Source: a virus. Taken from it: a stretch of DNA of 63,076 bases. The translations under genes were made by a program, and so were the position numbers. This document shows, piece by piece, positions 6,547-39,364 of this stretch (the first letter of the stretch is position 1; every line of letters starts with the position of its first letter). The notes below the pieces were generated by a model. The model had not been told where the DNA came from, ran no database searches, and saw nothing but the letters and a program-made list of their open reading frames with translations. The stretch covers positions 1 through 63,076 of the IMG/VR virus record IMGVR_UViG_3300020421_001998. The stretch is one strand, 5' to 3'.

Positions 6547-6624
6547 TGGCCTGCTCGGTAGGACTCGAACCTACGACCCACAGCTTAGAAGGCTGTTGCT
6601 CTAATCCAGCTGAGCTACGAGCAG
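6547..6624 (-). tRNA. tRNA-Arg(UCU)
   Basis: Read on the minus strand: acceptor stem CTGCTCG pairs with CGAGCAG, then discriminator G and an encoded CCA (6549-6547). The anticodon stem ACAGC/GCTGT holds loop CTTCTAA, so the anticodon is TCT. The T arm has GTAGG TTCGAGT CCTAC. It reads AGA, which looks like the main Arg codon of genes in this window. Confidence 0.95.
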
Positions 6625-6668
6625 TTTGTGTATTATGCAGGAGTATTATTTGATTGTCAAGTCTGAAT

Positions 6669-6745
6669 TGGTCGGAGTGGTAGGATTTGAACCTACGACC
6701 CTTGCGTCCCAAACGCAATGCGCTACCAGGCTGCGCTACACTCCG
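6669..6745 (-). tRNA. tRNA-Pro(UGG)
   Basis: Read on the minus strand: acceptor CGGAGTG with CACTCCG, discriminator A and encoded CCA (6671-6669). The anticodon stem TTGCG/CGCAA holds loop TTTGGGA, anticodon TGG. The D arm has the usual AGCGCAGCCTGGTAGCGC. It reads CCA, apparently the preferred Pro codon of the phage genes, and precedes tRNA-Arg in the leftward transcript. Confidence 0.95.
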
Positions 6746-24993: not shown

Positions 24994-25725
24994 ATGAATA
25001 TATTATTAACAGGTAGTGATGGCTTCATAGGTCAAAACCTACATACACATTTAAAAAAACTTAATCACAACGTAATTCAATTAGATATAAAATCTGGTAA
25101 TGATTTAATGGATTGTCCGTTAAATTATCACGTAGAGTTAGTAATACATTTAGCCGGACTATCAGGCGTTAGAGATAGTATGAATAATCCTACTGATTAT
25201 TGGAAACAAAATGTAATTGTTAGTCAAAGATTATTTGATTTCTTTAAAGATACTAAAATATTATATGCAAGTTCTTCAACAGCGTATGAGCCTTGGCGTA
25301 ATCCCTATGCTATGAGTAAATATGGTATAGAACAAATAGCACCTGAAAATAGTTTAGGTATGAGATTTACAACCGTTTACGGACCTAATGCAAAACCTAA
25401 TATGTTGATACCTAAAATTTTAAAAAATGATGTACAATATATTAATACAAATCATAAGAGAGATTTTATTCACGTCAATGATGTAATGGACGCCATAGAC
25501 ATATTAATGTTAAATGACGTAAAAGGAGTAATTGATATAGGTACAGGTCATAGTCATAACTTGGTAGATATTATTGATTACTTTAAAATAGATTGTGATA
25601 AAAAACTAGGTGGTGAAAATGAGAGACTAGATAATCAAGCTGATTTAAATACACTAAATAGTCTTGGGTGGAAACCTAAAGTGAATTTATATAACTACAT
25701 AAAGGAAATGAGAAATGTTAACTGA
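24994..25725 (+). CDS. NAD(P)-dependent sugar epimerase/dehydratase (extended SDR), 243 aa
   Basis: The nucleotide-binding motif GSDGFIGQN (GxxGxxG) is at residues 7-15 and the catalytic YxxxK is in NPYAMSKYGIEQ, with an upstream Ser/Thr stretch (YASSSTAYEP) that completes the SDR active site; RDFIHVNDVMDAIDIL is the usual second-half motif. The enzyme would act on a nucleotide sugar. At 243 aa it is shorter than most (300-340 aa), with a trimmed substrate domain. It overlaps the next gene by 11 bases and sits at the edge of the glycosyltransferase-rich island, so supplying a sugar donor is a reasonable inference. Confidence 0.88.
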   Translation: MNILLTGSDGFIGQNLHTHLKKLNHNVIQLDIKSGNDLMDCPLNYHVELVIHLAGLSGVRDSMNNPTDYWKQNVIVSQRLFDFFKDTKILYASSSTAYEPWRNPYAMSKYGIEQIAPENSLGMRFTTVYGPNAKPNMLIPKILKNDVQYINTNHKRDFIHVNDVMDAIDILMLNDVKGVIDIGTGHSHNLVDIIDYFKIDCDKKLGGENERLDNQADLNTLNSLGWKPKVNLYNYIKEMRNVN

Positions 25726-26212
25726 AGTAAATTTAAAAGAACACTTGATTAAAGCATACTTTGTAAATGAAGAAAGAACCATCATAGAAGTATTATATAC
25801 TTCAAATGATTTCAAAGAAACTCATAGTGCAATCATAGAATACGACACAAAACATCCTGATTGTAAGGCATTATTAGAAGTAATGAATCTAGATGACCTA
25901 CACGAGTCAACTTATCAACAGAAAAAGGATGAACGTGAAATATTTGAAGAAGAGGCCATAAAGATTGCAAAGAAGAGTGGTATGGTCTTTGATATGAATA
26001 AACTTGATACTAAATTTTATCCTACTATGGTCAAAGCTATTTTTGAAGAAACAGATAATGAAGACCATCTTTTTGCATTAAAATTAGCATTGTTTGAAGT
26101 TAATAAGATAAGAGATTCTAAAAATGAAGAGTTAAAGAAAAAGTTAAGACAATCTAAAACAAAAACAGATTGTTTGTTAAATGCTTTAACTATTGTTCAA
26201 GAAAGTAATTAG
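25715..26212 (+). CDS. Helical hypothetical protein, 165 aa
   Basis: ATG at 25715 overlaps the epimerase gene; AAGGAAATGAG precedes it. N-terminal 40 residues are beta-like (VNEERTIIEVLYTSNDFK), the rest highly charged helix with Lys/Glu repeats (QQKKDEREIFEEEAIKIAKK). I recall similar proteins of unknown role in marine T4-like phages. Its 3' end overlaps the convergent glycosyltransferase-like gene by 23 bases, marking the left end of the leftward operon. Confidence 0.6.
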   Translation: MLTEVNLKEHLIKAYFVNEERTIIEVLYTSNDFKETHSAIIEYDTKHPDCKALLEVMNLDDLHESTYQQKKDEREIFEEEAIKIAKKSGMVFDMNKLDTKFYPTMVKAIFEETDNEDHLFALKLALFEVNKIRDSKNEELKKKLRQSKTKTDCLLNALTIVQESN

Positions 26213-26759
26213 ACCACCAACCAGTCCAACCTTTTTCCATAAGGTGTTGCATTTGCCCTAGAGTTACCATACTAGCGTTTTCAGGCTTTCTATGAGGGTT
26301 GTCTTTTATAGAAGGACAAAATTTGCCAAACGTTTGATATTTTATTTCACGATAATAAAACTCATCACTACCTTTATTGTATTTTTCAAGATAAAATTTA
26401 TCGTTCTCTTTAAATTTTTTCCATATGTGAGATACATCACCTGTCCAAGATACAACAGACGAGTTTAAAGGTGTATGTGCTGGCTCTCTCCACCAACTAT
26501 CATCTAATAATGTAAAATGATGTCTTCTTAAATCAGGCAACTTATCAAAGATGACCATATCTAAATCAAAATATAAATTTTGGCCGTCTTTGTATATCTC
26601 ATACATTTGAAGTTTATTATACCAATTACCATACAAATCGGAAGACACAACAACAAACTCATCATACTTGATACCAGAATAGGTATCAATCATATGTTTC
26701 AGATTTTTGACGTGCCAATTGGTGTAGTAATCACCAAACTTACAACATATTATTCTCAT
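26190..26759 (-). CDS. Glycosyltransferase-like protein (GT-A, DxD), 189 aa
   Basis: A D65-L-D67 motif in NLYFDLDMVIFDKLP is the metal- and nucleotide-sugar-binding DxD of GT-A enzymes, preceded by the typical donor-site helix (WYNKLQMYEIY). SSVVSWTGD and a Trp-rich tail (GWTGWWSNYF) follow. At 189 aa it is short. Last gene of the 12-gene leftward operon, overlapping the nitroreductase-like gene by four bases. Donor and acceptor unknown. Confidence 0.72.
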   Translation of the reverse strand: MRIICCKFGDYYTNWHVKNLKHMIDTYSGIKYDEFVVVSSDLYGNWYNKLQMYEIYKDGQNLYFDLDMVIFDKLPDLRRHHFTLLDDSWWREPAHTPLNSSVVSWTGDVSHIWKKFKENDKFYLEKYNKGSDEFYYREIKYQTFGKFCPSIKDNPHRKPENASMVTLGQMQHLMEKGWTGWWSNYFLEQ

Positions 26760-27646
26760 TTAATTTCAGTAACCTTAATGTTTCTATTTCTAAATGAATT
26801 AATTTTAAACTCTGCTTTGTCAGGTATTATATGAGTATTACCATATGGGTCTTGTAATGATTTTCCAGCATTTTCTTTTATATCTACAATCTTTGCTTTT
26901 CTCATTTTCATACCACCTTTAATCTGACTAGGACTAATTTCTTGGTCTGTTAAACTTATTTTACTACCATTAGCTGCGCCTATCATTATTTCAGTTTCTT
27001 CGGACTCCCAACGTTCTAATTTTTCATTAGGATGACCTATACCAATACCATATGCTAATTTCTTTTTACCTGCTTTTACATCTTCAAGTATATCCAATTT
27101 CTTTTCCCAAAAATCATTGCCATCTAAATCATTCATATTTTTATTACAACCAGTTAAAAATCCCATTTTAGCGGCTGCTCTCATAACTAAAGCCATTGAC
27201 ATACCGATACTAATATAAGCATTGTGCCATCTTTCAGGATGTGTGTTTAGTTTTAATGTACCATCAGCATTAGCATTTAATTGTGATGATGGTTCTTTTG
27301 CAACATAAATTATATAAATGTTGGCATTTGCCTGTGAGTTTCTCCAGTTTGATGGTGGTTCTCTTCTATGAGTATTGCCCCAAGTATATCTTGAAAGTTC
27401 TTGTATTACTTTTCTATCAGCAGTCCAATATATGTCATAGTATCCTTCGTGTTGTTTACTAGGAGAGTTTTCAGCAATATATAAAAGTTCTTCTACCATT
27501 TCTCTATAAGTAGGATGTTTCATATCAAATTTAGTATAGTCCCAATTTCTTTGACATTTTTGTATCTTTGATAGGACTTCTCTTTCTTTGTCCCAATCAT
27601 AGAACATACCTAATATTCTTTTAGCTCTCTCTTCTCTTTCACTCAT
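26756..27646 (-). CDS. Nitroreductase-family protein, 296 aa
   Basis: The middle has the nitroreductase pattern: AENSPSKQHEGYYDIYWTAD (flavin-phosphate binding region), then HNAYISIGMSMALVMRAAAK and MGFLTGCNKN, the conserved helix and following strand of FMN-dependent oxidoreductases. The C-terminal 70 residues (KMRKAKIVDIKENAGKSLQD onward) look like an added beta domain. It is one of two such proteins in the operon (other at 29791). Possible roles are reduction or dehydrogenation of a small-molecule or sugar intermediate; substrate unknown. Confidence 0.75.
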   Translation of the reverse strand: MSEREERAKRILGMFYDWDKEREVLSKIQKCQRNWDYTKFDMKHPTYREMVEELLYIAENSPSKQHEGYYDIYWTADRKVIQELSRYTWGNTHRREPPSNWRNSQANANIYIIYVAKEPSSQLNANADGTLKLNTHPERWHNAYISIGMSMALVMRAAAKMGFLTGCNKNMNDLDGNDFWEKKLDILEDVKAGKKKLAYGIGIGHPNEKLERWESEETEIMIGAANGSKISLTDQEISPSQIKGGMKMRKAKIVDIKENAGKSLQDPYGNTHIIPDKAEFKINSFRNRNIKVTEIK

Positions 27647-28376
27647 TCCAATTATCCTTTATAAATTGTTCATTACTTTGATGTATAGTTTTGCCAGGTC
27701 CGGCAAAATTTACAACTTTAAGATATTTATGAGTATCTCCCATTATCATATAATCAGTTTTGAATTTATCACAATACATTTTTTGTATATCTAAATTTTT
27801 CTTATAATCATAATTATATAAACCTAGCCATTTACCAGGAATAGTGGTAACTTCTATATCTTTATCTAACATACATTGATATACAAAATTTTGTTCACCA
27901 TAATATTTTTTATGAACAATACCTTGATTATAATAAAATAATTGCCAGTATTCAGGATTTTCAATAAATCTATCCCATACAAATTTTAATCTACCTGATT
28001 TAAATTTATAAAAACTACCATTGATTTTTAAATTCTTATCCCACCAAGAATCATAACTAATAAGTTCATTAGAGTGTACAGGATAATTTAATAACTTTTC
28101 TACATCACCTACAATAACTTGGTCAATATCCATAATTATTATATCATCATCTGGTTCTTGATATGCAAAATTAGGACTAAAAAATTTTAACTTATGCCAA
28201 TGTTTTTTAATTGAGTTATGTTTTAGAGGTAATACTAAATCAGCCTCAACGTCTGTATCACTTAAACATATAAACTCAAAAGGTACCTTACTATTTCTTT
28301 TTAAACTTCTATATAATTTACTTACATAGTCTGGCGTATAAATGCCATCAAAATATACGGTACATATTTTAAGCAT
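27639..28376 (-). CDS. Glycosyltransferase-like protein (GT-A, DxD), 245 aa
   Basis: Begins MLKICTVYFDGIYTPDYVSK and has the donor site patterns FEFICLSDTD and KLKFFSPNF, then IIMDIDQVIVGD with D83-I-D85 as the DxD motif. YNQGIVHKKYYGEQNFVYQC resembles the acceptor-side loop of GT8-like enzymes; the end has GPGKTIHQSN with a His that could be the last metal ligand. It overlaps both neighbours by 8 bases. Probably transfers a sugar to a phage-made product or virion protein (inference). Confidence 0.78.
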   Translation of the reverse strand: MLKICTVYFDGIYTPDYVSKLYRSLKRNSKVPFEFICLSDTDVEADLVLPLKHNSIKKHWHKLKFFSPNFAYQEPDDDIIIMDIDQVIVGDVEKLLNYPVHSNELISYDSWWDKNLKINGSFYKFKSGRLKFVWDRFIENPEYWQLFYYNQGIVHKKYYGEQNFVYQCMLDKDIEVTTIPGKWLGLYNYDYKKNLDIQKMYCDKFKTDYMIMGDTHKYLKVVNFAGPGKTIHQSNEQFIKDNWNE

Positions 28377-29196
28377 TTACATTTCTCCAAACTATATCAA
28401 ATTTTTTATTAATAGTGTGTATAAATTTTGTATCTTTAGGTATAAACAACCAATTATCAAAGAAGTAATGCCATTTATCATCTAGCCATTGTACTGGTAC
28501 ATCATTTTGTTTTAATTTAACACCAAACAAAGTTTCATTATCATAACCAAAATAATCTACAATCTTTTTAGGAAAGACAGACGTATCAAACTTTAATTGT
28601 GTCATCTTAATCATATCCTGGTCAAAAGTATTAAAGTATGCTAATTTATATAAGTTTGATTTATTAATACCTATAATGCCTGTATTGATTACATCATTTT
28701 CTGTTTTCATACCCATATCTAACAACATTGCTTGAGTGTTATAATACTTTGACGTAGGACTTCTAATTGTTTGTGTCTTCTCTGTTATCTGACTCATTCT
28801 TAATACTTTGTCATTATTATTTAAGACGGCCACACCTTTTGATAAATCCCACACCTCAAAAAAGTTTTCTTTTGTATTAGGTACTACATCAAAGTCAAGA
28901 TATAATATCTCATCATACTCTGCTGAAAACTTATATAACAAGTATATTTTGTAAAAGTTTATAATATTATAAGTGGTAAGAAAAGGATATTTACTTTTCA
29001 TTTCATCATAATAGTCTTTATATTTTTCCACCATAATAAAATCAACACCAATACTATTTGCGTAATGTCTTTTACAATCAATTAATTTTTTGTAATTATC
29101 ATTCATTTGTTTTTTGGTGTTTAAGTTTGTTTCAACATTATCTACAAACTGGTCGTCTGGCACCTCAACATATAAACTAAAGATAAGCCTATTCAT
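28369..29196 (-). CDS. Glycosyltransferase-like protein (GT-A, DxD), 275 aa
   Basis: FYKIYLLYKFSAEYDEILYL is followed by DFDVVPNTKENFF, giving D101-F-D103 as the DxD motif of GT-A enzymes. NTGIIGINKSNLYKLAY and DYFGYDNETLFGVKLKQ match the second half of the fold, and FIHTINKKFD near the end supplies a possible metal-binding His. Starts at 29196 with MNRLIFSLYVEVPDD. It overlaps the methyltransferase-like gene by 8 bases. Sequence differs clearly from the other two DxD proteins here, so the three probably form different linkages. Confidence 0.75.
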   Translation of the reverse strand: MNRLIFSLYVEVPDDQFVDNVETNLNTKKQMNDNYKKLIDCKRHYANSIGVDFIMVEKYKDYYDEMKSKYPFLTTYNIINFYKIYLLYKFSAEYDEILYLDFDVVPNTKENFFEVWDLSKGVAVLNNNDKVLRMSQITEKTQTIRSPTSKYYNTQAMLLDMGMKTENDVINTGIIGINKSNLYKLAYFNTFDQDMIKMTQLKFDTSVFPKKIVDYFGYDNETLFGVKLKQNDVPVQWLDDKWHYFFDNWLFIPKDTKFIHTINKKFDIVWRNVNA

Positions 29197-29800
29197 ATTT
29201 ACCTACTAGAAGAAATCTAGTACCTCTTTCATCCATAATTTTATCTTCTACCATAACCTTTGCATTTTCAGGCAATTGATATTTAAATTCTTCAATAGAA
29301 GATACACAATTAATATGTCCTTCAATATCGTACATATTGTTAGATTGATAAGCAAAGTAAGCACCTTTTATTCTTTCAGACCAAGGATTTTTATATTCAG
29401 GTGCAGGTCCCCATTGTTTCATAGACTTCATATGTTCGCAAGAAGTATTGATAAACAAGTTTGCTGTTTTATATTGGTCTCTAAATTTATCAAATACATC
29501 ACCTGTTATAAACTCTACATTTTTATAATGGTCAAACAATCTATTCTTAGCAATGCCAATAACATCTTTATCTTTATCAATCAAAGTTATTTTATCAACA
29601 TACTTAAATGCAGGTATTAATATTGTACCATACCAGCCACCAAATATAACTATCTCACTATTTTGGTCAACTAATTGCAAGTTCTCAACGTGCTTAATTA
29701 AAACTTCTTTAGACCTATATTGATTAGGACTTACTGAATCTAATAAGTCTTTATTATGTCTGGCCTCTGCCATTATTTTTTTAAATAAAGTTAAATCCAT
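29189..29800 (-). CDS. SAM-dependent methyltransferase-like protein, 203 aa
   Basis: A Rossmann core is visible: IVIFGGWYGTILIPA (motif I, Gly-rich SAM loop), ITLIDKDKDVIGIAKNRL (motif II acidic residue), NVEFITGDVFDKF (motif III) and LFINTSCEHMKSMKQW (motif IV). The pattern IFGGWYG differs from the usual ExGxGxG, so a methyltransferase with an unusual SAM loop, or a relative with another role, are both possible. It sits between glycosyltransferase-like and nitroreductase genes, overlapping each by about 8-10 bases. Confidence 0.7.
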   Translation of the reverse strand: MDLTLFKKIMAEARHNKDLLDSVSPNQYRSKEVLIKHVENLQLVDQNSEIVIFGGWYGTILIPAFKYVDKITLIDKDKDVIGIAKNRLFDHYKNVEFITGDVFDKFRDQYKTANLFINTSCEHMKSMKQWGPAPEYKNPWSERIKGAYFAYQSNNMYDIEGHINCVSSIEEFKYQLPENAKVMVEDKIMDERGTRFLLVGKYE

Positions 29801-30516
29801 TCTACAATCTCATCTACTTCAGGTTTTATATCCATACCATCTGGTACTTCGTGTTTTTTTAACCAATGTTGGCGATATTGTTCAGCATAACCTATTGACA
29901 TAATAACGTGTACTTTTGCTAATTGATTTTCTTTATCATACCAAAGATATGGTGTATCTTTCCATTTGCCTTCATTTTTAGGAAAACAAGCCGTGTATGA
30001 TACGTCAATATTGTTTTCTATACACAAAGCAGTTAAATTACTAGCAAATAATCCTACTTCAAAACTGGTACTTTCGGCAATTTTCATAACCTCATCTATT
30101 TCGCATTGTTCAGCAAAGTGCCCTTTCTCTTTTACCATTTTTTGATAATACTCATTTGGTTTATCACACACTCTTGAGCTGAATATAATTAAGTGAGAAT
30201 TATGTCTAACGTGTTTATAACTAGGGTTTATTGTAAATTTATAATCTTCTTTCATTTTAGGATTATTTTTAGTATCGTAAGTCATACCTCTATCATCATA
30301 ATATTTGTGATTTTCTACAACCTTATCATATATAATATTTTTTTGTTCCTGTTTAAAAGGTCCTAATACACTAACTTTATAAGGCATAAAATTATTTTTT
30401 GACGGTGATATTTTCCACGCTTGTTTTAATAATTCAGCAACTAGTTTATCAGATATAGTTTCTGGTTTATATTTAATAACGTGATGTCTTTTTTCTAATG
30501 TATCGTATATACTCAT
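29791..30516 (-). CDS. Nitroreductase-family FMN oxidoreductase, 241 aa
   Basis: The N-terminus SIYDTLEKRHHVIKYKPETI and AWKISPSKNNFMPYKVSVLG are the classic start of nitroreductases (Arg and Ser-Pro-Ser loop binding FMN phosphate). ESTSFEVGLFASNLTALCIE and KVHVIMSIGYAEQYRQHW complete the pattern. Length (241 aa) is normal for the family. It overlaps the carbamoyltransferase gene by 4 bases. In secondary-metabolite clusters such enzymes oxidise or reduce ring systems; the substrate here is unknown. Confidence 0.82.
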   Translation of the reverse strand: MSIYDTLEKRHHVIKYKPETISDKLVAELLKQAWKISPSKNNFMPYKVSVLGPFKQEQKNIIYDKVVENHKYYDDRGMTYDTKNNPKMKEDYKFTINPSYKHVRHNSHLIIFSSRVCDKPNEYYQKMVKEKGHFAEQCEIDEVMKIAESTSFEVGLFASNLTALCIENNIDVSYTACFPKNEGKWKDTPYLWYDKENQLAKVHVIMSIGYAEQYRQHWLKKHEVPDGMDIKPEVDEIVEWI

Positions 30517-32003
30517 TTTTTTACCACTTTATCATTTATAACTAAAATATCTAATGCAGTTTTTCTAAAAGTTCTTATAGCCTGTTGTGGTGTTTCTACA
30601 ATAGGTTCTTGACAATTAAAACTAGTATTCAATAACATTGGTATACCTGTTATTTTATAAAACTCATTTATAATATTGTAAAACTTTTCATTAAACTCTT
30701 TGTTGACCGTTTGTATTCTTGCAGTACCATCAACGTGAGTTATGCCTGGTACTTTATCTGACTTAACTTTACATATACGAGACATAAAAGGACTAGGTTG
30801 ATTTGTGTCAAAATATTCTTTATAGTGTTCTTCTAATACAGCTGGTGCAAAAGGTCTAAAGTCTTCTCTGTTTTTAATTGTTGCATTAATAATATTTTTA
30901 ATATCAGGATTACGTGGGTCAGCCAATATACTTCTATTACCTAATGCACGATTACCACTTTCTGAACGACCTTGATACCAACCAACTATCTTGCCATCAG
31001 CAATAGATTGTGCTATATCTTTATAATTAACATCTTCTCCGTATGTGTGTGGGTATGCGTGACCACTAAAAGTTTCTGATTTGTGTTTGTAATTATTAAC
31101 ATTTACATTAGCGTGTTGATAAACACCTATTGCTTGGCCTTCATCACCTACAGCAGGTGGTACATATACATTTTTATAATGTTTAGTAAACTCTTCATTC
31201 ATATATCCGTTGTATGCAACACCACCAGCAATACATAAATTATCGCAAGTCTTTAATGGATAGATATGTTCTTTTATTTTATCTAAAGTAAATTTTTGTA
31301 AAGTAAATGCTAATGCTTCTTTACCAAATTTATCAATATTAATCATATTGTGTATATCATAATTTTTTTCTTTTATTTCACCTGATACAATTGTTTCAAA
31401 TACATCATAGTAATATTGATTGTAATTGCCATAACCAACAAGACCCATAAGTTTACTTGCACCTAGTGACCCGAATCCTGTAAGTTTAGACATTTGATTC
31501 CATAACCAACCAATCGGTAATTCTTTTGATAAGTCTTTTATATTTTCATCTTTATCAACAAAGATACATCTAAACTTAGCACCAATACCGTCAATGGCAA
31601 GTATATCTGATTTATCAAAACCAGAGTTTATAAGTGCGTAAGTGGCGTGAGATTGGTGGTGGTCACAATAATAAACATCATCTTTTAATACAAAGTCAAA
31701 TAATTTTTTAGGTACAAAGTCTAATACTTCTTTATCAATAAGTTCTTTACACATTCTAATACCACCCATAGTATAAGAAAATGCTAGTATGCCTGATTCT
31801 GGCTTATGAAAATAATCTTTAACAAACTCATTGTTTAATTTGTAATCATTTGTATTTAAAATATCTGATTGATGAGCATATGCGTCAGCGTGATATGGTA
31901 AATTATGTTTAAATCTAGTATATCTTTCCATTTGTCTATGTATTTTTCCGTCATAAACATTTTGGTCGTGTAAATTTAAAGCAACAGCGTATATATTATG
32001 CAT
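30513..32003 (-). CDS. Carbamoyltransferase, NodU/CmcH/TobZ family, 496 aa
   Basis: Transfers a carbamoyl group from carbamoyl phosphate through carbamoyl-AMP to a hydroxyl. Visible motifs: CDHHQSHATYALINSGF (metal-binding HxxxH of the Kae1-like half), CIAGGVAYNG, and in the C-terminal YrdC-like half GRSESGNRALGNRSILADPR, NREDFRPFAPAVLEEHY and GIPMLLNTSFNCQEPIVETP. At 496 aa it is a little shorter than typical (550-600). The N-terminal first motif is degenerate. Known members act on Nod factors, cephem and aminoglycoside antibiotics, and some phage members act on hydroxymethylated bases. Here, among sugar enzymes, carbamoylation of a sugar hydroxyl is favoured (inference). Confidence 0.92.
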   Translation of the reverse strand: MHNIYAVALNLHDQNVYDGKIHRQMERYTRFKHNLPYHADAYAHQSDILNTNDYKLNNEFVKDYFHKPESGILAFSYTMGGIRMCKELIDKEVLDFVPKKLFDFVLKDDVYYCDHHQSHATYALINSGFDKSDILAIDGIGAKFRCIFVDKDENIKDLSKELPIGWLWNQMSKLTGFGSLGASKLMGLVGYGNYNQYYYDVFETIVSGEIKEKNYDIHNMINIDKFGKEALAFTLQKFTLDKIKEHIYPLKTCDNLCIAGGVAYNGYMNEEFTKHYKNVYVPPAVGDEGQAIGVYQHANVNVNNYKHKSETFSGHAYPHTYGEDVNYKDIAQSIADGKIVGWYQGRSESGNRALGNRSILADPRNPDIKNIINATIKNREDFRPFAPAVLEEHYKEYFDTNQPSPFMSRICKVKSDKVPGITHVDGTARIQTVNKEFNEKFYNIINEFYKITGIPMLLNTSFNCQEPIVETPQQAIRTFRKTALDILVINDKVVKK

Positions 32004-32820
32004 TTAAAACCCTCGCATATTTTCTAAAAGGAAAATGTCCTTTTGGTGATACCCATTCAGTACAAGTTTTACAATAGTTTTCATATTTAAATAATTGCCA
32101 GTTCATCATCTTATCTATATTCTCTTGCGTTAAGTCAAACGTTTTAGATAGTTCTTTGTTATTTGCAAACTTCTTACTACAATGTACAATATGTTTCTTT
32201 TCAAAATCTATCACAGGCACCTGTGGAAAAGCTGCACACATTTTTCTATCTATCTCTTCAGCCTGTATAACGTCTGTAAATTCTGGTGACCTGCCGTTAA
32301 ATGCTTTCCACATTGTATTTTTATGATTCAATTTTTCTAATACTTCAGGATACTTATCTTTGTATTTAAAGTAATTTGGTGTTCTAACAACTACATTAAA
32401 ATTATTGTTATCATTTTCTGGTATGTAATCAAAGTTGCCTAGTTTTTTAACTTCATCATCATACCAATCTAATATGTTATGTTCAACATACAATATATCT
32501 TTGTCTTCTAAAATATGAGGGTATCTTTTACGTATAAAAGAATTAGATAATACTGAACATACAAAGTTTGGATACTTCTTAATTTCAGTAATAACTTCAT
32601 CTAAATTTTTAATTAGGCCTGGCTCACCACCTAGTAGATTAATTCTTACCTTATAATCTTTTAGGAAATCTAATGTTTGTTTTAAGAATTGCATATCAAC
32701 GGTAAGATTACGCATTTCTAAAGTATAACTTGTACAATAATGGCAATTCTTATTACACGACATTGATAGAAAGAAATCAATTGCTCTATAATTATCTTGT
32801 ATCTCTTTAAATGTTTTCAT
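31996..32820 (-). CDS. Radical SAM enzyme, 274 aa
   Basis: The 4Fe-4S motif CxxxCxxC is C22-NKN-C26-HY-C29 in LSMSCNKNCHYCTS. RINLLGGEPGLIKNLDEV is the GGE motif contacting SAM, and extra Cys near the end (VHCSKKF, YCKTCTEW) could bind an auxiliary cluster as in SPASM/twitch proteins. Substrate unknown; such proteins act on peptides, sugars or cofactors. It overlaps the carbamoyltransferase gene by 8 bases. The IscA-like carrier at 3195 could help mature it (inference). Confidence 0.88.
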   Translation of the reverse strand: MKTFKEIQDNYRAIDFFLSMSCNKNCHYCTSYTLEMRNLTVDMQFLKQTLDFLKDYKVRINLLGGEPGLIKNLDEVITEIKKYPNFVCSVLSNSFIRKRYPHILEDKDILYVEHNILDWYDDEVKKLGNFDYIPENDNNNFNVVVRTPNYFKYKDKYPEVLEKLNHKNTMWKAFNGRSPEFTDVIQAEEIDRKMCAAFPQVPVIDFEKKHIVHCSKKFANNKELSKTFDLTQENIDKMMNWQLFKYENYCKTCTEWVSPKGHFPFRKYARVLNA

Positions 32821-33115
32821 AGTTTATCATATCAAAAAAGAATTTGTTAAATGCTATCTTTAACTTATCTTTTGGCTTATCGTTTAACATAACAGACATA
32901 TCAACCCATTCAGGCATTTGATAAGTCTTCTCAATTAAATAGTGGTAAATATCTTCAACATCTTTATTAACTAAGCTTTCGTCAAACATATTATCACCTA
33001 AAACTTCATTCATAATCTTACATAATTCAATAGGACATTTTTTAGTTATATCAGACATATTGCCTTGTTTATCAACATAACTAAATTGAGTAAGTGATTT
33101 ATTGTGTTCTATCAT
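32807..33115 (-). CDS. Hypothetical protein, 102 aa
   Basis: A small, mostly helical soluble protein (start MIEHNKSLTQFSYVDKQG; helices in CPIELCKIMNEVLGDNMF and DIYHYLIEKTYQMPEW). It overlaps the aminotransferase gene by 4 bases and the radical SAM gene by 14, so it is a real operon member. Its place directly before a radical SAM enzyme would fit a partner or carrier protein, but no carrier Ser motif or peptide-recognition motif is evident. Not recognised. Confidence 0.55.
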   Translation of the reverse strand: MIEHNKSLTQFSYVDKQGNMSDITKKCPIELCKIMNEVLGDNMFDESLVNKDVEDIYHYLIEKTYQMPEWVDMSVMLNDKPKDKLKIAFNKFFFDMINYENI

Positions 33116-34152
33116 ATTAATAGTAAGATAGTATTAATTACTTTATCTTGTTCCTCTTTTTTCATAAACGGATGTAAAGGTAGAGTAAGTATTGTATCAC
33201 ATACAATCTGACTTATAAAACTTGTATCTTTTTTGTGTTCTATATTTTCATACATCTTATTTGCAGAGATAGGTTTATCATAATGTATTTGACCAACCTT
33301 AGCTTTCACTCTATCTCTTACTTCTTTGTTTTGAAATCTAACTACATATTTGTGATAGTTATGATTTAATTCTGGTGGATTAGGTTGAACGGTCACATAT
33401 TCTTGTAATTGCTCATCATAGTATTTGGCCAATTCTTGTCTTTTACTAATATAGTATTTTAATTTATTTAATCTAAAATTAATTACTTCAGCATTAAACA
33501 ATAACATTTTAGAATTATATCCTAATTGTTTGCCTTCACCGTGTTTTCTTAATCTCTTAAATATATCAGTATCGCCATCTGTTAAGATAGCTCCACCACC
33601 AGCGATACCTGATACAACCTTATTTGCATTAAAACTTAATGTAGATAAATCGCCTATTGTTCCAGCCTTAATACTATTATAACTGGAACCTAGAGATTGG
33701 CAAGCGTCTTCAATAAAATGTATATTTTTTGCTTGACAAAATTCTTGAATCTTGCTAGTATCTGACATATTGCCAAATAGGTGTGGATATATGATTGCTT
33801 TTGTTTTGTCTGTACACATATCTTCAATACTTTCTATTGACATATGATAAGATAGTATATTAATATCACAGAATATAGGTGTAGCGCCGGTCATTGATAT
33901 AACACTTGCAGTTGATATCCAAGAGAAGTTAGTTGTTAATACTTCATCACCTTTACCAATACCTAAACTTAATAGTGAAAAGAATAAAGCGTCTGTACCA
34001 CTATTACAAACAACAGCCTTTCTACCAAACATATTAGATAAGTTATTTTCAAGAAACTCTATATTAGACTCTTGATTTTTTCTCATAGACTTATCAAATA
34101 GTTCTTGATATTCTTTTGTAAAGATTTCGTATTCTTTATCCCAACCGTGCAT
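33112..34152 (-). CDS. DegT/DnrJ/EryC1/StrS-type PLP aminotransferase, 346 aa
   Basis: Fold type I PLP enzyme that aminates keto-sugars. Visible: VVCNSGTDALFFSLLSLGIG (cofactor-phosphate loop), IHFIEDACQSLGSSYN with D149 and Q152 contacting PLP, and STLSFNANKVVSGIAGGGAI with K178 as the Schiff-base lysine. Length (346 aa) is near the family norm of about 370. It implies that an amino sugar is made by the island, in line with the epimerase at 24994 and the glycosyltransferases. It overlaps the SGNH gene by 17 bases. Confidence 0.92.
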   Translation of the reverse strand: MHGWDKEYEIFTKEYQELFDKSMRKNQESNIEFLENNLSNMFGRKAVVCNSGTDALFFSLLSLGIGKGDEVLTTNFSWISTASVISMTGATPIFCDINILSYHMSIESIEDMCTDKTKAIIYPHLFGNMSDTSKIQEFCQAKNIHFIEDACQSLGSSYNSIKAGTIGDLSTLSFNANKVVSGIAGGGAILTDGDTDIFKRLRKHGEGKQLGYNSKMLLFNAEVINFRLNKLKYYISKRQELAKYYDEQLQEYVTVQPNPPELNHNYHKYVVRFQNKEVRDRVKAKVGQIHYDKPISANKMYENIEHKKDTSFISQIVCDTILTLPLHPFMKKEEQDKVINTILLLI

Positions 34153-34867
34153 ATATAAACTCCGCTATTTTTTCTTGACCTAATTTATTTGGATGACTAT
34201 CAATATTTGAAATTATTGTATCATCTTCTATTCTAATTAATTCTTTTTGAATACTATAACCACCCATTTCTTTAGATATAGGCCAACCTATAAATTTTTT
34301 TGTATTAATTACACTTTCATAACTATCAATTATTTTTATAATTTTTTTATTATCTTTTTTTTCGTCACCTGGATATGTGTGTCTAAAACCTTGTAAATAA
34401 CCTGGTTCTAATTCTCTAGGTCTTAATCCTGATAACCAATCTTGATACGGCGCTAACATTTGCATATGTAAATAATTTAAATTATATTTCTCACACAATA
34501 TTTGAAAACTAACATAATTGTCTAATGTTTTTTTCATCCAACTAAAAACATCACCATTAGGGTCTATTCTAGCATTTGTCCAACGACCTAAATTGCCTTC
34601 TTGATAATCTTTTCTATTACATTGTGTCCAGGCAGGTATAACCAACCCTATATTAGAGGTATCGTTTCTAGTAATGTAATATAAAAGTGAGCGATAGATA
34701 TATTCATTACCAGCACCAGATTTGCCAAGATTGACACAATCCATATTTAATTTTTTTGCTAGTAATTCTGGCCATTTAGGCCAAGAACAATCCATATCAG
34801 GATGTAATTCACTATAAAAATCTTTTTCTGTATTACTACAACCACTTACTAATAATATCTTTTTCAT
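34136..34867 (-). CDS. SGNH/GDSL-like hydrolase or acyl-transferase, 243 aa
   Basis: Block I is LLVSGCSNTEKDF with S11 as nucleophile, block II NLGKSGAGNEYIYRS supplies the Gly and Asn, and the C-terminal DSHPNKLGQEK gives the Asp/His pair (D223, H225). This is the catalytic set of SGNH enzymes, which remove or transfer acyl groups, often on carbohydrates. No signal peptide, so it acts in the cytoplasm. A role in acylating or deacylating the island's sugar product is plausible. Stop and start share a base with the upstream gene. Confidence 0.78.
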   Translation of the reverse strand: MKKILLVSGCSNTEKDFYSELHPDMDCSWPKWPELLAKKLNMDCVNLGKSGAGNEYIYRSLLYYITRNDTSNIGLVIPAWTQCNRKDYQEGNLGRWTNARIDPNGDVFSWMKKTLDNYVSFQILCEKYNLNYLHMQMLAPYQDWLSGLRPRELEPGYLQGFRHTYPGDEKKDNKKIIKIIDSYESVINTKKFIGWPISKEMGGYSIQKELIRIEDDTIISNIDSHPNKLGQEKIAEFIYARLG

Positions 34868-35742
34868 TATATACTCTTAATTAAATCTACCAATACTTTT
34901 GCGTTCTCTTTGTACATTTCTTTTGTAGGCACAGGTCGTTTCATATAAACAGGACCGCCATCTTTTATATTCTTATCTCTTAAATATTCAATATTTTTAC
35001 CTAGCCATTTACATTCTTGTATAAGTCTTGGCGCTGGGTCATAATAGTTCTTTGTATAAACATAAGTGTTAAAAAGACCTAATAAGTTATGAACAGGCGC
35101 AATTATATTATTGTAATCCATTATAGTATAATCCTCGTCATATGTCAATATTCCGTGTGATTTGAAACAATTAGGACACTCTTTTATCCATCTATCTATC
35201 TCTTTATAATACACGTTATTTGTGCCTAAAAATAGATACTCAAATTGTACGTCATTTTTTACTGGTTTATACTCTTCAAAATTAATCATTTTTTCATATT
35301 GAGTACCAACACCGTTAGGGTAAACGTCATAATCGCATAAGTCATAAACTTCTTTCGGATTATAATGTTCTAAAGCTAATGGATATTCTTTGACGTGGTT
35401 TTCTGAATATACAGATATAAGTTTACCACTAAACAATAAATGCAAAGATAATAGTTGGTCGTTTGTATAATCTTTCTTATTAATATATGATAAAGTCAAC
35501 ATACTTCTACCCATTATCAAAGTAATGTCTTTCATAGATGGTGTAAATGAATTAAAGACCACATTTTTATAGGTCTTGTATTTTTCATTTATTGCGTCTA
35601 TGTAATTTTGTATTGTAAAGTTGTGATGTGTAATAATTACCACTTGGCTTTTAATGCCAATAGAGTTTAAATAACAACAATGCTCATAACTATAACAAAG
35701 CAATCCATCACCAGGTTTACTGGTACATACTATATTAATCAT
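34867..35742 (-). CDS. Probable glycosyltransferase-like protein, 291 aa, first gene of leftward operon
   Basis: The start at 35742 (MINIVCTSKPGDGLLCYSYE) is chosen because AGGAGG and a late promoter lie immediately upstream; a longer frame to 35817 would run through the promoter. The sequence reads like a GT-B enzyme: N-terminal KPGDGLLCYSYEHCCYLNS, and near the C-terminus NTYVYTKNYYDPAPRLIQEC followed by KWLGKNIEYLRDKNIKDGGP, resembling the donor half of phage GT-B proteins. No DxD. The AGGAGG touches the ATG, an unusual spacing. Family call is moderate. Confidence 0.6.
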   Translation of the reverse strand: MINIVCTSKPGDGLLCYSYEHCCYLNSIGIKSQVVIITHHNFTIQNYIDAINEKYKTYKNVVFNSFTPSMKDITLIMGRSMLTLSYINKKDYTNDQLLSLHLLFSGKLISVYSENHVKEYPLALEHYNPKEVYDLCDYDVYPNGVGTQYEKMINFEEYKPVKNDVQFEYLFLGTNNVYYKEIDRWIKECPNCFKSHGILTYDEDYTIMDYNNIIAPVHNLLGLFNTYVYTKNYYDPAPRLIQECKWLGKNIEYLRDKNIKDGGPVYMKRPVPTKEMYKENAKVLVDLIKSI

Positions 35743-35747
35743 CCTCC

Positions 35748-35755
35748 TATTTATA
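35748..35755 (-). promoter_or_regulatory. Late promoter TATAAATA, leftward, driving the 12-gene operon
   Basis: Exact octamer read on the minus strand, overlapping by two bases the rightward octamer at 35754. Its end is five bases before the ATG at 35742, so the first transcript would begin at or near the start codon. Confidence 0.75.
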
Positions 35756-35761
35756 TAAATA
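35754..35761 (+). promoter_or_regulatory. Late promoter TATAAATA, rightward, driving the 5-gene operon
   Basis: Exact octamer on the plus strand, back to back with the leftward one. It ends five bases before the ATG at 35767 (TTAGG between), again giving a nearly leaderless transcript. Confidence 0.75.
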
Positions 35762-35766
35762 TTAGG

Positions 35767-36558
35767 ATGGTTGTTAATGAAGTGAAAAGTCTGTTTAAAG
35801 GCACAGATGATAAACAAAAAGATTTTGGTTGGTATGAATTTACACTTGAAGAGTTGGGATTGCCGTCAGCTAATAAAATCTTGAAAGGTGTTAAAGAAAT
35901 AGAATCTAAAGTTGGACTATTCAACTGGAGAACAAAACACCACACTCACGAAAAATATAAAGGTTTTGGATTAACTTATAATCCTAATTTCTTTGACAAA
36001 AACGAAAGTAGATATAGTCAAGTATGGGGCTCGCCTTTACTAGAACAATATTATGGTGCAGAAAAAGGCACAGGCGACCATACTCAAATGAAAGATACTT
36101 ATTATGATACTTTTGGATTTTGTAAGATAGATGAAACAATACAAGAACATCTAGGATTTTTTTTAAATAGATTTAGTTTTCCAATATCAAGAAGTAGAGT
36201 AGCGTATATTTTTGGTTATGGCGAAGAGCCAAATAAAGACAAGGGTTGGCACGTTGACGAGCCTACTTGCCAATTGTTAAGAATTAATATACCATTGCAA
36301 ACAAGTGATGAATATATTATGGAATGGTCAGATAAACAATATAAATTAGAAATTGGTAAAGTATATTTGTGGAATACTAGGATGCCACATAGACCAACAA
36401 TGATTAAAAAAGTTGAGACGAAAGAACCTAGAATTAATGTGGTATTAGGAATTACTCCTTGGTTGGATTTGAATCACAACACCTGTGAGTATACCAGAAA
36501 TAAATTATTTGGCAAGCCTGTAAATGAGATAGTGAAAGAAAAGTTATTTGTAAAATGA
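35767..36558 (+). CDS. 2OG-Fe(II) oxygenase, asparaginyl-hydroxylase-like, 263 aa
   Basis: The start at 35767 (MVVNEVKSLFKGTDDK) is chosen because the late promoter lies just upstream; the longer frame from 35680 overlaps the leftward gene and promoter. Iron ligands are H162-x-D164 in KGWHVDEPTCQLLRINIP and H208 in RMPHRPTMI; R222 in PRINVVLGI anchors 2-oxoglutarate. The GWHxDEP...RxNIPL pattern is common among marine phage and alphaproteobacterial hydroxylases. Overlaps the next gene by four bases (ATGA). Substrate unknown. Confidence 0.85.
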   Translation: MVVNEVKSLFKGTDDKQKDFGWYEFTLEELGLPSANKILKGVKEIESKVGLFNWRTKHHTHEKYKGFGLTYNPNFFDKNESRYSQVWGSPLLEQYYGAEKGTGDHTQMKDTYYDTFGFCKIDETIQEHLGFFLNRFSFPISRSRVAYIFGYGEEPNKDKGWHVDEPTCQLLRINIPLQTSDEYIMEWSDKQYKLEIGKVYLWNTRMPHRPTMIKKVETKEPRINVVLGITPWLDLNHNTCEYTRNKLFGKPVNEIVKEKLFVK

Positions 36559-37259
36559 ACATAACTAGAGAAAAAGTTTTTACAGATTTAGTCTGTGTTG
36601 AAAAGGTAGGAAAACTATCTGCTGAAGAACAATTAAAGTTAGCAGAAACAATAGGTAAAGTAGAAAAGCCTGACCTTAATAATCCTAGACATAAAGAATT
36701 ATTTGATAAATGGGGTGGTGTACCAGGTGTAGTAAAGGTTACAGAGGGTGGATTATTTGGCCATAAAGAAGTTTTAGATTGGCACGCTAATAAACCTAGT
36801 GAAGAAAATAGATGTTCAATAGTTTGGATATATGCAGTAAAAGGAAGTAAAGGTAGTATTACAAGTTGGATTGATAATAAAAAAGCATATGAAGATTTAC
36901 CAGATGAAATAAAAGCACATTGTCATAATGTAAGATTTACCTGTGGTTTTAAAAAGGGTGGTTATACAGATGACCCCACATTTAAAGAACACCACAATAA
37001 AGATAATGTTCATAGATTAGTTTATACAAATGAATATGGTCAAAAAGGATTATACTTTCCTTTTTTACAAATAATTGAAGGTATACCAGATGAGTTATTT
37101 AATTATTTAAAGAAACATATTTTACAAGATAAGTATAGATACGACCATCATTGGCAAGACGGAGATTTAGTTGTAAGTGAACAATGGCTAACAATACATA
37201 AAAGACACGCCTTTGATAAAATGAACGAAAGACTAATGAATAGAATAGCAATAAGATGA
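36555..37259 (+). CDS. TauD/TfdA-like 2OG oxygenase with an HxN variant, 234 aa
   Basis: The second half matches the TauD fold: DGDLVVSEQWLTIHKRHAF with H215 as distal ligand and R230 (MNRIAIR) as 2-oxoglutarate anchor. The usual HxD appears as H77-A-N79 (LDWHANKPSEE), so the Asp ligand is replaced by Asn. This could still bind iron, could bind a halide as in halogenases (which carry Gly or Ala there), or could be inactive. Co-translated with both neighbours through four-base overlaps. Confidence 0.72.
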   Translation: MNITREKVFTDLVCVEKVGKLSAEEQLKLAETIGKVEKPDLNNPRHKELFDKWGGVPGVVKVTEGGLFGHKEVLDWHANKPSEENRCSIVWIYAVKGSKGSITSWIDNKKAYEDLPDEIKAHCHNVRFTCGFKKGGYTDDPTFKEHHNKDNVHRLVYTNEYGQKGLYFPFLQIIEGIPDELFNYLKKHILQDKYRYDHHWQDGDLVVSEQWLTIHKRHAFDKMNERLMNRIAIR

Positions 37260-38221
37260 AACCAGAAAACAACACATACCCTATATTAAGTGTACAGACA
37301 ACGTATCAATGTAATATGGCCTGTGCTAATTGTTATCTAGGTGATATGTTAAATAATCCAAAATTTCCGGATGTGGATGTAAAGAAGTTTGAAGATGTAA
37401 TTAAAAGATTGCCAAATAAAACACATATAAGATTTATTGGTGCAGAGCCGACTTTAAATGAAAATTTATTTGATTTAATAAAGATTACTAAAAAGTATAA
37501 TCACAGGCCAAATATGTTGACCAATGGATTAAAATTGGCAGATGAGTATTATGTTAAAGGTCTTAAAGAATCTGGTATGACTTGGATTGGATTAAGTATG
37601 AATGGTGGTTTAGATGATGAAGTATATAAAAGATTTGATAATGGCAAATATGCAAAACTAAAGATGAGAGCTTTAGAAAATTGTATTAAGAATAATTTAG
37701 TGCCTCACATAAACGTTATTATAGACCCCTCTAATGTTCATATATTAGAACCATTAATATCTCATATAATTAAACTATGTGAAAAACATAATAGAAAAAT
37801 AGGACCTCATTTTCCTATAATGTTAAGAGTTAAATCAATAGGTAAAATGGGAAACTTTTTAGATAGTCATACATTTACAATATATGAAATGATTAGTATT
37901 ATGAAAAATTTAGTAGGCGATATAGTGCCTAATTTTACTATTGATGGTGTAAAAGAAACTAATACTTGTACCTTTGAATTTAAAACCTCTATGGGCAAGA
38001 TGTATGGTAAAATAACTGATTGGTCAGTAGATGATGACGGTCTACCATTGACAAATAGTAAAAGAAGAGGTATAATAACAGACAATTATCAAATAGAACC
38101 ATTTTTTGATTATTACGGAAAAATAGATGAAACACAACACCCTAGATTGGAACAACCGAAGCGTTTACCCATTGCTACAAAACGAAGTGGACTTGACGGT
38201 ACTAGAAAACGTACCTTGTAG
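37256..38221 (+). CDS. Radical SAM enzyme, 321 aa
   Basis: CxxxCxxC is C19-NMA-C23-AN-C26 in TTYQCNMACANCYLGD; IRFIGAEPTLNENLFDLI is the GxE region for SAM; WIGLSMNGGLDDEVYKRF resembles strand 4-5 of the radical SAM barrel. No Cys-rich C-terminal domain is visible, unlike the one at 31996. The end overlaps the next oxygenase gene by 95 bases in another frame, which is unusually long. Substrate unknown; acting on the same product as the neighbouring oxygenases is inferred. Confidence 0.88.
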   Translation: MKPENNTYPILSVQTTYQCNMACANCYLGDMLNNPKFPDVDVKKFEDVIKRLPNKTHIRFIGAEPTLNENLFDLIKITKKYNHRPNMLTNGLKLADEYYVKGLKESGMTWIGLSMNGGLDDEVYKRFDNGKYAKLKMRALENCIKNNLVPHINVIIDPSNVHILEPLISHIIKLCEKHNRKIGPHFPIMLRVKSIGKMGNFLDSHTFTIYEMISIMKNLVGDIVPNFTIDGVKETNTCTFEFKTSMGKMYGKITDWSVDDDGLPLTNSKRRGIITDNYQIEPFFDYYGKIDETQHPRLEQPKRLPIATKRSGLDGTRKRTL

Positions 38222-38852
38222 CCAAGTAGAAATTTGGAATTTTTTAGAGAACGCATTTAGACCGGCGCCACAGGATCCTTTTGACCAAATGTTTGTCAAT
38301 ATAGTAAGTGATGAACGAGCATTAGCAAAAGAAAATTTAAAAGGCAATACTGAATTAGAATGGCACATAGATAAAGGTTATTCAGAAAATCCACCAGAGT
38401 ATGTTGCTTTATATTCAGTTGACATAGATGAAAATGCTGGTAATACTTTATTTGTATCAAGTAGAATACTTGAAGAAATACCTGATTATTATAGAAAACA
38501 TAAAGACGATAAAGTTCAGTTTGATATGAACAGATTTATACACGATAAAGAATATGGCTATCATTTTAGAAGTGAGGCAGAGAGAAGATGGTTTAGAAGA
38601 AAGTATAGAAATGTTGAACACGAATTAGTACAAGGCGATAAAGAGGGTGTGTACTTATATTATTGTGAAGCATATAATGACTTACCTGAAATGCAAATGA
38701 TTAAGGATAAGTTGTATGACCCTAATAGAATTCATAGACACAAATGGCAAAAAGGTCAACTATTAATTTATAATAATAAAGCAACCAATCACAAAAGAGA
38801 AAATGGTGGTAGTAAGAGGCATTTATGGAAGATTGCATTGTACGAGAGATAA
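38127..38852 (+). CDS. TauD/TfdA-like 2OG-Fe(II) oxygenase, 241 aa
   Basis: ELEWHIDKGYSENPPEYVAL contains H80-I-D82; WQKGQLLIYNNKATNHKREN supplies the distal H222 and the following SKRHLWKIAL has R231 for 2-oxoglutarate, so the triad is complete, unlike the HxN relative at 36555. The ATG at 38127 lies 95 bases inside the radical SAM gene; the next in-frame ATG is after residue 50 and would remove conserved sequence, so a start inside the overlap is needed (a TTG at 38172 is an alternative). It overlaps the following gene by 28 bases. Confidence 0.8.
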   Translation: MKHNTLDWNNRSVYPLLQNEVDLTVLENVPCSQVEIWNFLENAFRPAPQDPFDQMFVNIVSDERALAKENLKGNTELEWHIDKGYSENPPEYVALYSVDIDENAGNTLFVSSRILEEIPDYYRKHKDDKVQFDMNRFIHDKEYGYHFRSEAERRWFRRKYRNVEHELVQGDKEGVYLYYCEAYNDLPEMQMIKDKLYDPNRIHRHKWQKGQLLIYNNKATNHKRENGGSKRHLWKIALYER

Positions 38853-39364
38853 AAGAGTTTAATAAATTATCAGGACTTTTTATATTAGCAAGTTCTTTAC
38901 CACACGAAAACTCTAAAAATTACACAATTGAAAATATGCAAAAAAGATGGTCAAACTATCTTATGTTTAATGTATTAGAATATAAAGGTATGCCAATTAG
39001 TTTTAGTGGTGTATATAAGTATAGTGATAATTTAGTTAGAGTAGTAGATAGATTATTTACAATGCCTGAATATAGACAAAGGTTTATGACAAAAGGTATT
39101 ACAGAAAAGATTAGACCAGCTGCCGATTATTTTATACCTTATCAAACTAAATGGGCAAAGGCAAGAGGTTTTGATTGTTTCTTTTCAATACAAACGTCAA
39201 AGAAACGAAACTCATTAAAACGATTAACTAAATTAATTGATGATGATTTAGGATATAGGATGTTACCTGGATTATATCAAACTAGTTCTAACTCTATTAC
39301 AGGTTGGCAAAACGTATCTGCCACCAATGATAATATTAAGTTACCTAATAAGTCTATACACTAG
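38825..39364 (+). CDS. Hypothetical protein, possibly GNAT-like acyltransferase, 179 aa
   Basis: Last gene of the rightward operon. The core YLMFNVLEYKGMPISFSGVY ... LVRVVDRLFTMPEYRQRF ... AKARGFDCFFSIQTSKKR has the strand-strand-helix rhythm of a GNAT fold, in which a cofactor loop follows the central strand, but the Q/RxxGxG/A loop is not clear. The start at 38825 lies in the previous gene. Its 3' end overlaps the convergent gene by 11 bases. Weak call; if a GNAT, it could acylate the amino sugar implied by the DegT enzyme. Confidence 0.5.
   Translation: MEDCIVREIKEFNKLSGLFILASSLPHENSKNYTIENMQKRWSNYLMFNVLEYKGMPISFSGVYKYSDNLVRVVDRLFTMPEYRQRFMTKGITEKIRPAADYFIPYQTKWAKARGFDCFFSIQTSKKRNSLKRLTKLIDDDLGYRMLPGLYQTSSNSITGWQNVSATNDNIKLPNKSIH

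Follow-up and report, generated by a model that had tools for sequence, protein, structure and literature searches.

The viral record IMGVR_UViG_3300020421_001998 (63,076 nucleotides, analysed at its full length and called the window here) is part of the genome of a T4-like phage with T4-type baseplate genes, the closest cultured relative of which is Pelagibacter phage Mosig EXVC030M (MT647606), a SAR11 myophage that infects HTCC1062. SAR11 is among Earth's most abundant bacterial groups, and the island that lies beside the tail genes of these myophages had no known role. In the window this island occupies positions 24994–39364, downstream of the VrlC baseplate gene (homologue at 16722–22862, 68% identical to that of Mosig) and small fibre genes, and upstream of more tail-fibre genes and, at 59162, a gene for a head-tail adaptor. 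It comprises an epimerase gene (g01), the gene g02, a 12-gene operon on the minus strand (26190 to ~35742) and a five-gene operon on the plus strand (~35767 to 39364). The reading frames, strands and overlaps listed in a preliminary description of this DNA are reproduced by the table of open reading frames, the overlaps being 1, 4, 8, 10, 14, 17, 28 and 95 bases.

Enzymes of the core arm

Family scans gave firm assignments for the epimerase, a carbamoyltransferase, a DegT aminotransferase, two radical S-adenosylmethionine (SAM) enzymes and two TauD-like oxygenases. Catalytic motifs are intact in the carbamoyltransferase, both radical SAM enzymes (CxxxCxxC), DegT (the lysine), the epimerase, a short-chain dehydrogenase/reductase (SDR; TGxxGxIG and YxxxK), and the SGNH hydrolase (the triad). 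The enzyme classes named in the preliminary description are present, with weak matches for the nitroreductases, g15 and the acyltransferase.

The first two genes are on the plus strand. A nucleotide-sugar epimerase of the extended SDR type is encoded by g01 (24994–25725; Pfam Epimerase 6e-26; PHROG 540), with the motifs TGSDGFIG and YAMSK, and g02 (25715–26212) encodes a conserved, module-linked protein with no family above cut-off and no assigned function. The remaining core genes are all on the minus strand. The sugar aminotransferase g12 (33112–34152) is a DegT/DnrJ/EryC1 protein (Pfam 4e-72, with PDB matches) that carries its catalytic lysine in SFNANK; its NCBIfam matches are of the PseC/LegC/ArnB type, every one below the equivalog cut-off. 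The 102-residue g11 (32807–33115) corresponds to a C-terminal DegT part, which is separate here and has its homologous stretch inside the 419-residue DegT of Mosig, so that g11, judged by this homology, did not originate as a gene of its own. Split and fused forms number 83 and 81 among the fetched loci (not deduplicated), and the two genes of the split form overlap by 4 bases in the window (32807–34152).

The O-carbamoyltransferase g09 (30513–32003) is of the NodU/TobZ/GdmN type. It shares both Pfam domains with these enzymes (Carbam_trans_C 2e-67, Carbam_trans_N 1e-20), its HHxxH metal site and GRSExGxRALGNRS motif are intact, and its PDB relatives include GdmN, the novobiocin carbamoyltransferase and TobZ. 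However, it is shorter (496 residues) and falls well under the NodU equivalog cut-off. It is 72% identical to its Mosig homologue, and the next full-length match among isolates is at ~31%. Beside it lie g10 (31996–32820; Pfam 4e-8), a radical SAM enzyme with the motif CNKNCHYC and extra C-terminal cysteines, and g08 (29791–30516; PHROG nitroreductase 9e-6), a variable nitroreductase-like flavoprotein; a second, optional protein of this kind is encoded by g04 (26756–27646), the Pfam match of which (6e-4) is below cut-off. These matches of g04 and g08 hint weakly at nitroreductases. A SAM-dependent methyltransferase is encoded by g07 (29189–29800; profile match to 1dus, MJ0882, at 6e-7) and an SGNH hydrolase or acyl-esterase-like protein by g13 (34136–34867), in which the catalytic S11, D223 and H225 are invariant across 15 aligned homologues.

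Four genes encode glycosyltransferases. Both g03 (26190–26759; GT-A-like, with a DLD motif) and g05 (27639–28376) belong to PHROG 1962, at 1.6e-5 and 1.7e-20, respectively. For g06 (28369–29196; GT-A, with a DFD motif) and g14 (34867–35742; GT-B-like, leading the core operon), a PDB profile search gave no match, and fold assignment needed predicted structures. The AlphaFold model of g06 (predicted local distance difference test, pLDDT, 84.8) finds LARGE1, the PBCV-1 capsid glycosyltransferase and LgtC at 1e-6 to 1e-5 in Foldseek, and its nearest folds include protein glycosyltransferases (LARGE1, UGGT and the PBCV-1 capsid enzyme). The g14 model (pLDDT 70.9) matches a GT-B glucosyltransferase at 4e-6 with a TM of ~0.4, a weaker likeness than that of the g06 model to GT-A. 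The start of g14 is most likely the ATG at 35742, not the TTG at 35817.

Inheritance of the twelve-gene block

Co-inheritance was assessed in 56 distinct block-spanning loci, chosen for holding g14 plus g03 or g05; because of this choice, the presence of g14, g03 and g05 is partly a matter of selection, and the interior genes are the real test. All 56 loci contain g05 and g14, 55 contain g06 and g07, 54 contain g09 (mean identity 73%) and 53 contain g12. Each of g03, g10, g11 and g13 is found in 51, with g10 the best-conserved protein of the module (mean identity 80%) and g13 much more divergent (45%), and g08 (35%) and g04 are found in 45 and 26, respectively. Nearly all of these loci, which lie beside the same tail genes, share the order g14-g13-g12-g11-g10-g09-(g08)-g07-g06-g05-(g04)-g03, and the block is conserved over relatives down to 45–65% protein identity. 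Furthermore, pairwise distances of g03, g05, g09, g10, g12 and g14 correlate with one another (Spearman 0.34–0.67). The 12-gene block is therefore a real inherited unit. The preliminary description had proposed that related phages might carry scattered subsets of these genes, which would count against a joint function; this refutation fails for the 12-gene arm because its genes are inherited together, while the plus-strand arm is patchy. The idea that all 17 genes form one pathway is not supported, as each plus-arm gene is found in 4 to 13 of the 56 loci.

When relatives were sampled by VrlC instead, the module was found in 23 of 38 distinct relatives and was missing from 15, in some of which extra fibre genes occupy its place. 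The epimerase gene g01 is present in 22/23 module-positive vs 5/15 module-negative loci (P=6e-5), and g02 at ≥35% identity in 23/23 vs 0/15 (P values ignore relatedness); divergent g02 matches (27–34%) are present in some module-negative loci. By this co-occurrence, g01 and g02 belong to the module. Among loci without it, L236, L240, L247, L257 and L305 have other fibre genes downstream of VrlC. By eye, L236 and L247 also encode an FAD-enzyme-like protein with a VGGGTA start, a candidate halogenase-like protein, and L305 several radical-SAM-like proteins downstream of VrlC.

The position of the module is more constant than its orientation. With respect to the tail genes on either side, the module is inverted in L122, L133, L218, L141, L132, L125 and L025, and in several phages (e.g., L122, L133, L218, L141 and L125) the whole inverted block is on the tail-gene strand after g02. 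Its location beside VrlC and the tail genes is retained despite block inversion or promoter replacement.

Among 50,697 phage records, Mosig is the sole match for g05, g06, g10 and g14. Its draft genome, estimated to be 76% complete, contains homologues of the epimerase, of g02 and of all 12 core genes, with little change in their order. However, a nitroreductase leads its operon, DegT is fused, and its accessory arm carries an annotated desaturase, FMN reductase, peroxiredoxin and methylase. The Mosig genome announcement does not discuss the module (PMC7892664). As for a cellular source, a search with g14 gave two contigs of metagenome-assembled genomes (MAGs), both probably phage, and one with g06 gave a single genome among 197 of the host family, on the same phage-like contig as one of the g14 matches. 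Because g06 occurs in one host-family genome only, and there on a phage-like contig, the module has no visible recent host source. Module pieces are seen in L161 (a Pelagibacter MAG) and L162 (a Planctomycetota MAG), which appear to be phage contigs assigned to bacterial bins.

The region itself has been described. The host recognition cluster (HRC) of pelagimyophages was reported as a large, non-syntenic, hypervariable island in which GT8 and lipopolysaccharide (LPS) genes were counted (PMC7029224). It lies after VrlC and before the neck genes in the same phage group and holds glycosyltransferases, radical SAM cassettes and tail fibres; the window island, which is between VrlC and a neck gene and has tail-fibre genes and glycosyltransferases, belongs to it. 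Hypervariability holds for the region and for the plus arm, whereas the 12-gene block is syntenic where it occurs. Polysaccharide clusters with carbamoyltransferases and 2-oxoglutarate (2OG) oxygenases are also known from the cyanomyoviruses P-SSM2 and S-SSM7 (Sullivan et al., 2010; PMC3037559), which like the window phage are T4-like and marine. However, those clusters are near hli03 or phoH, whereas the window island adjoins VrlC and tail genes; the carbamoyltransferases listed for cyanophages are ~30–41% identical to g09, often over part of the length, and g05, g06, g10 and g14 have no cyanophage match. No published description of the module as a pathway was found in the open-access literature. 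Thus, although phage glycan islands are known, the conserved 12-gene module appears to be undescribed; what is new is a conserved pathway inside a region described as non-syntenic, together with promoter swapping and a predicted leaderless start.

Promoters of the core operon

The two arms diverge from a short interval in which the T4-type late promoter motif TATAAATA occurs twice, at 35748–35755 on the minus strand, 5 nt before the ATG of g14, and at 35754–35761 on the plus strand, 5 nt before the ATG of g15. The number of copies in the window is not above chance (14 vs 13.5 expected), and so only their placement is informative: 12 of the 14 are within 45 nt upstream of a start, and the other 55 permutations of the motif reach at most 7. 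The runner-up, ATAAATAT (7), overlaps TATAAATA, and the next best permutation reaches 5. In Mosig, 20 of 28 copies are within 60 nt of a start vs 9 for the best non-overlapping permutation, and the genome is annotated with a T4-type late sigma, its accessory protein and the clamp (gp55, gp33 and gp45). This placement and the late factors of Mosig make late-type promoters credible. Late-promoter prediction in pelagimyophages had been reported as failed (PMC7029224), and a usable signature for them is now gained.

Promoter type varies among relatives. In both the window and Mosig, the core operon begins at a late-type promoter. The region upstream of the g14 homologue was surveyed in 81 distinct relatives, and 37 of these have a near-consensus sigma70-type TTGACA-N16-18-TATAAT, in 26 cases with an additional late-type NATAAATA motif further upstream. 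Another 13 have NATAAATA 5 nt before the ATG, the same distance as in the window; of the remainder, 13 g14 homologues follow g02 in a tail-gene operon, 15 follow another gene and 3 are unclassified. An earlier set held 35 upstream regions outside operons, of which 27 contained a sigma70-type site at ≤2 mismatches, vs ~6% of shuffles. Mosig has near-consensus sigma70-type sites directly upstream of some replication and regulatory genes (e.g., late sigma and primase), while many of its structural genes are preceded by TATAAATA; some sigma70-like matches, however, fall within genes. Because promoter type varies in this way, timing alone cannot identify the decorated target. The preliminary description had argued from late promoters to the role of the island; as a general argument this is not supported, since the operon has an early-type promoter in some phages, a late-type one in others and is reached by read-through in yet others.

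Spacing between motif and start is similar for both promoter types. Each of the 13 late-type copies leaves exactly 5 nt to the ATG (a distance that defines the class), and in the 37 relatives with a sigma70-type promoter the −10 box nearly always ends 5–7 nt before it. In standard promoter geometry, transcription would begin at or adjacent to such an ATG. This spacing therefore predicts a leaderless core operon mRNA in nearly all cases with a recognisable promoter, whichever its type. In the window, promoter motifs abut the ATG at a distance of five nucleotides on both strands at 35742–35767, and the window gene 3512 also has TATAAATA five nucleotides before its ATG.

Proposed glycan product, probable acceptor and accessory arm

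The combination of amino-sugar, carbamoyl, methyl and glycosyltransferase functions that the preliminary description put forward is coherent as well as inherited together, and the product of the module is probably a carbamoylated amino-sugar of an unusual kind, which it would also attach to a surface. From gene families, order, co-occurrence and promoters, we infer the following reaction order, product and acceptor. The 26190–35742 block with the epimerase and g02 would be a module for glycan assembly, situated where SAR11 (Pelagibacter) myophages have their host-recognition genes. A host nucleotide-sugar would be epimerised by g01 and transaminated by g12/g11, its redox state would be altered by the radical SAM enzyme g10 and the flavin enzymes g08 and g04, and it would be methylated by g07 and O-carbamoylated by g09. 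Sugars would be added stepwise by three GT-A-like transferases (g03, g05 and g06) and one GT-B-like transferase (g14), while the SGNH enzyme g13 may put on or take off an acyl group. The neighbouring accessory arm, with a radical SAM enzyme, 2OG oxygenases and a possible acyltransferase, differs between phages. The acceptor would be a tail protein from the adjoining genes, giving the virion a variable glycan coat that perhaps tunes adsorption or shields the fibres.

All of these steps look cytosolic, and a tail protein is therefore the most likely acceptor. No island protein has hydropathy at the usual membrane-segment level (19-residue maximum 1.43), and family scans of the island proteins found no flippase, polymerase or lipid-carrier transferase families; because these are missing, a cytosolic acceptor is favoured. 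The gtr-type O-antigen conversion cassette differs in this respect, as it has a membrane flippase and a membrane glycosyltransferase. In mycobacteriophages, glycosyltransferases near structural genes are proposed to act on virion proteins, and to our knowledge they have no comparable 12-gene sugar pathway. A genome note infers virion glycosylation for phage Maravista. The window resembles these cases in having glycosyltransferases near structural genes. Our reading, held tentatively at a little short of an even chance, is that a glycan of carbamoylated, methylated amino-sugar is made by soluble enzymes and joined, most likely, to tail proteins of the phage itself. The fuller version is more tentative still: the tail proteins of SAR11 myophages would be coated with this glycan by a conserved 12-gene pathway of the phage, a swappable arm would vary the sugar between phages, and expression would come from a leaderless mRNA at an early or late promoter.

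Several observations weigh against tail proteins as the acceptor. The missing membrane segments are weak evidence, because LPS-core transferases can be soluble too; the match of g06 is at fold level only (TM ~0.45–0.6), and one of the matched enzymes, LgtC, has lipo-oligosaccharide as its substrate; the module shows only a weak association with the fibre gene f_c (18/23 vs 7/15, P=0.08); and the sigma70-type promoters would permit expression from the onset of infection, before virion proteins need it. A close rival explanation places the glycan on the host: the enzymes would alter the LPS or surface polysaccharide of an infected SAR11 cell, so that competing phages could not superinfect it or progeny would not re-adsorb to debris. 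Zaragoza-Solas et al. (2020; PMC7029224) proposed this for glycosyltransferase genes of the host recognition cluster. Early expression is what exclusion requires, and the sigma70-type promoters fit this explanation better; LgtC among the fold relatives of g06 also favours it. However, the module has no membrane, flippase, polymerase or lipid-carrier step, the late-type promoter in the window and Mosig would act too late for exclusion, and g06 is almost absent from the host family. We regard host-surface remodelling as possible but somewhat doubtful.

Host carbamoyltransferases bear on this question as well. A Carbam_trans_C gene is present in 113 of the 197 host-family genomes, which makes carbamoylated host glycans plausible targets or models, and carbamoyl chemistry thus seems to be familiar to the host group. 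The host-family enzyme is ~611 residues long and widespread, and its neighbourhood differs between genomes. In L333 it is near NeuB, DegT and UDP-GlcNAc 2-epimerase genes, and in L331 near a transporter and a peptidase; on whether they serve surface glycans, the host enzymes thus give a mixed picture.

A free small molecule, for example aminocyclitol- or nucleoside-like, that acts on the host or competitors and is completed by the transferases is an unlikely product. Among the best PDB relatives of g12 and g09 are glutamine:scyllo-inositol transaminase, TobZ, GdmN and the novobiocin carbamoyltransferase, which come from antibiotic-type pathways, but the PDB set is biased towards antibiotic enzymes. 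Moreover, a small product does not usually take four glycosyltransferases, neither an exporter nor a resistance gene is seen in the module, and its position beside the tail genes is conserved.

Hypermodification of phage DNA by the carbamoyltransferase and its partners, as in the 5-carbamoyloxymethylcytosine system, is very improbable. The 5-hydroxymethylcytosine carbamoyltransferase is of the same superfamily as g09 and phage-encoded, so that such activity exists in phages, and it pairs with a hydroxymethylase of the thymidylate-synthase family (PMC8670742); early-type promoters in many relatives would also fit. However, no thymidylate-synthase/dCMP-hydroxymethylase family gene (PF00303) was found in Mosig or three long relatives, records that may be incomplete, and g09 is flanked by glycosyltransferases, as are the carbamoyltransferases of unmodified contigs (PMC8670742). 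Mosig has ThyX. Because the Mosig draft is incomplete, the absence of a hydroxymethylase is not absolute. The preliminary description had also disfavoured DNA modification, on grounds of timing; its conclusion stands for this other reason. Equally improbable is that the region has collected captured genes that are unrelated and share no function: the surrounding region is described as hypervariable and non-syntenic (PMC7029224) and the plus arm is patchy, but conserved order, co-occurrence and intact active sites refute this for the 12-gene arm and leave it possible for the plus arm.

With one part of the island identified as a fixed pathway, the vague label of "LPS genes" gives way to a question that is testable in the cultured pair Mosig and HTCC1062.

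The plus arm (g15–g19) is accessory and varies between phages. Most likely starting at 35767, g15 (35767–36558; Pfam 0.02; 6/56 loci) has an HVD motif and a weak likeness to Asp/Arg-hydroxylase-type 2OG oxygenases. It is followed by two TauD-like oxygenases, g16 (36555–37259; Pfam 8e-26; 13/56) and the 2OG enzyme g18 (38127–38852; HID motif; Pfam 7e-19; 6/56), with the radical SAM enzyme g17 (37256–38221; CNMACANC; Pfam 4e-15; 4/56) between them. The last gene, g19 (38825–39364; no family match; 5/56), is a weak candidate for an acyltransferase, by comparison with an annotated N-acetyltransferase in the accessory arm of Mosig. The contrast between a conserved core and variable tailoring enzymes (g08, g13 and the plus arm) agrees with diversifying selection on a glycan. 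The fibres were also checked for collagen-like repeats, a potential hydroxylase substrate, and none of note were found.

In g16, H-x-N replaces the expected iron-binding H-x-D, and homologues down to ~45% identity have WHAN, or WHSN in distant matches, at this site, which may mean an altered reaction. The 95-base overlap in the window is that of g17 and g18, and homologues keep it in shorter form (~30–65 nt). Finally, the window carries tRNA-Arg(tct) and tRNA-Pro(tgg) at 6547–6745, which match two of the three Mosig tRNAs near the same baseplate genes.

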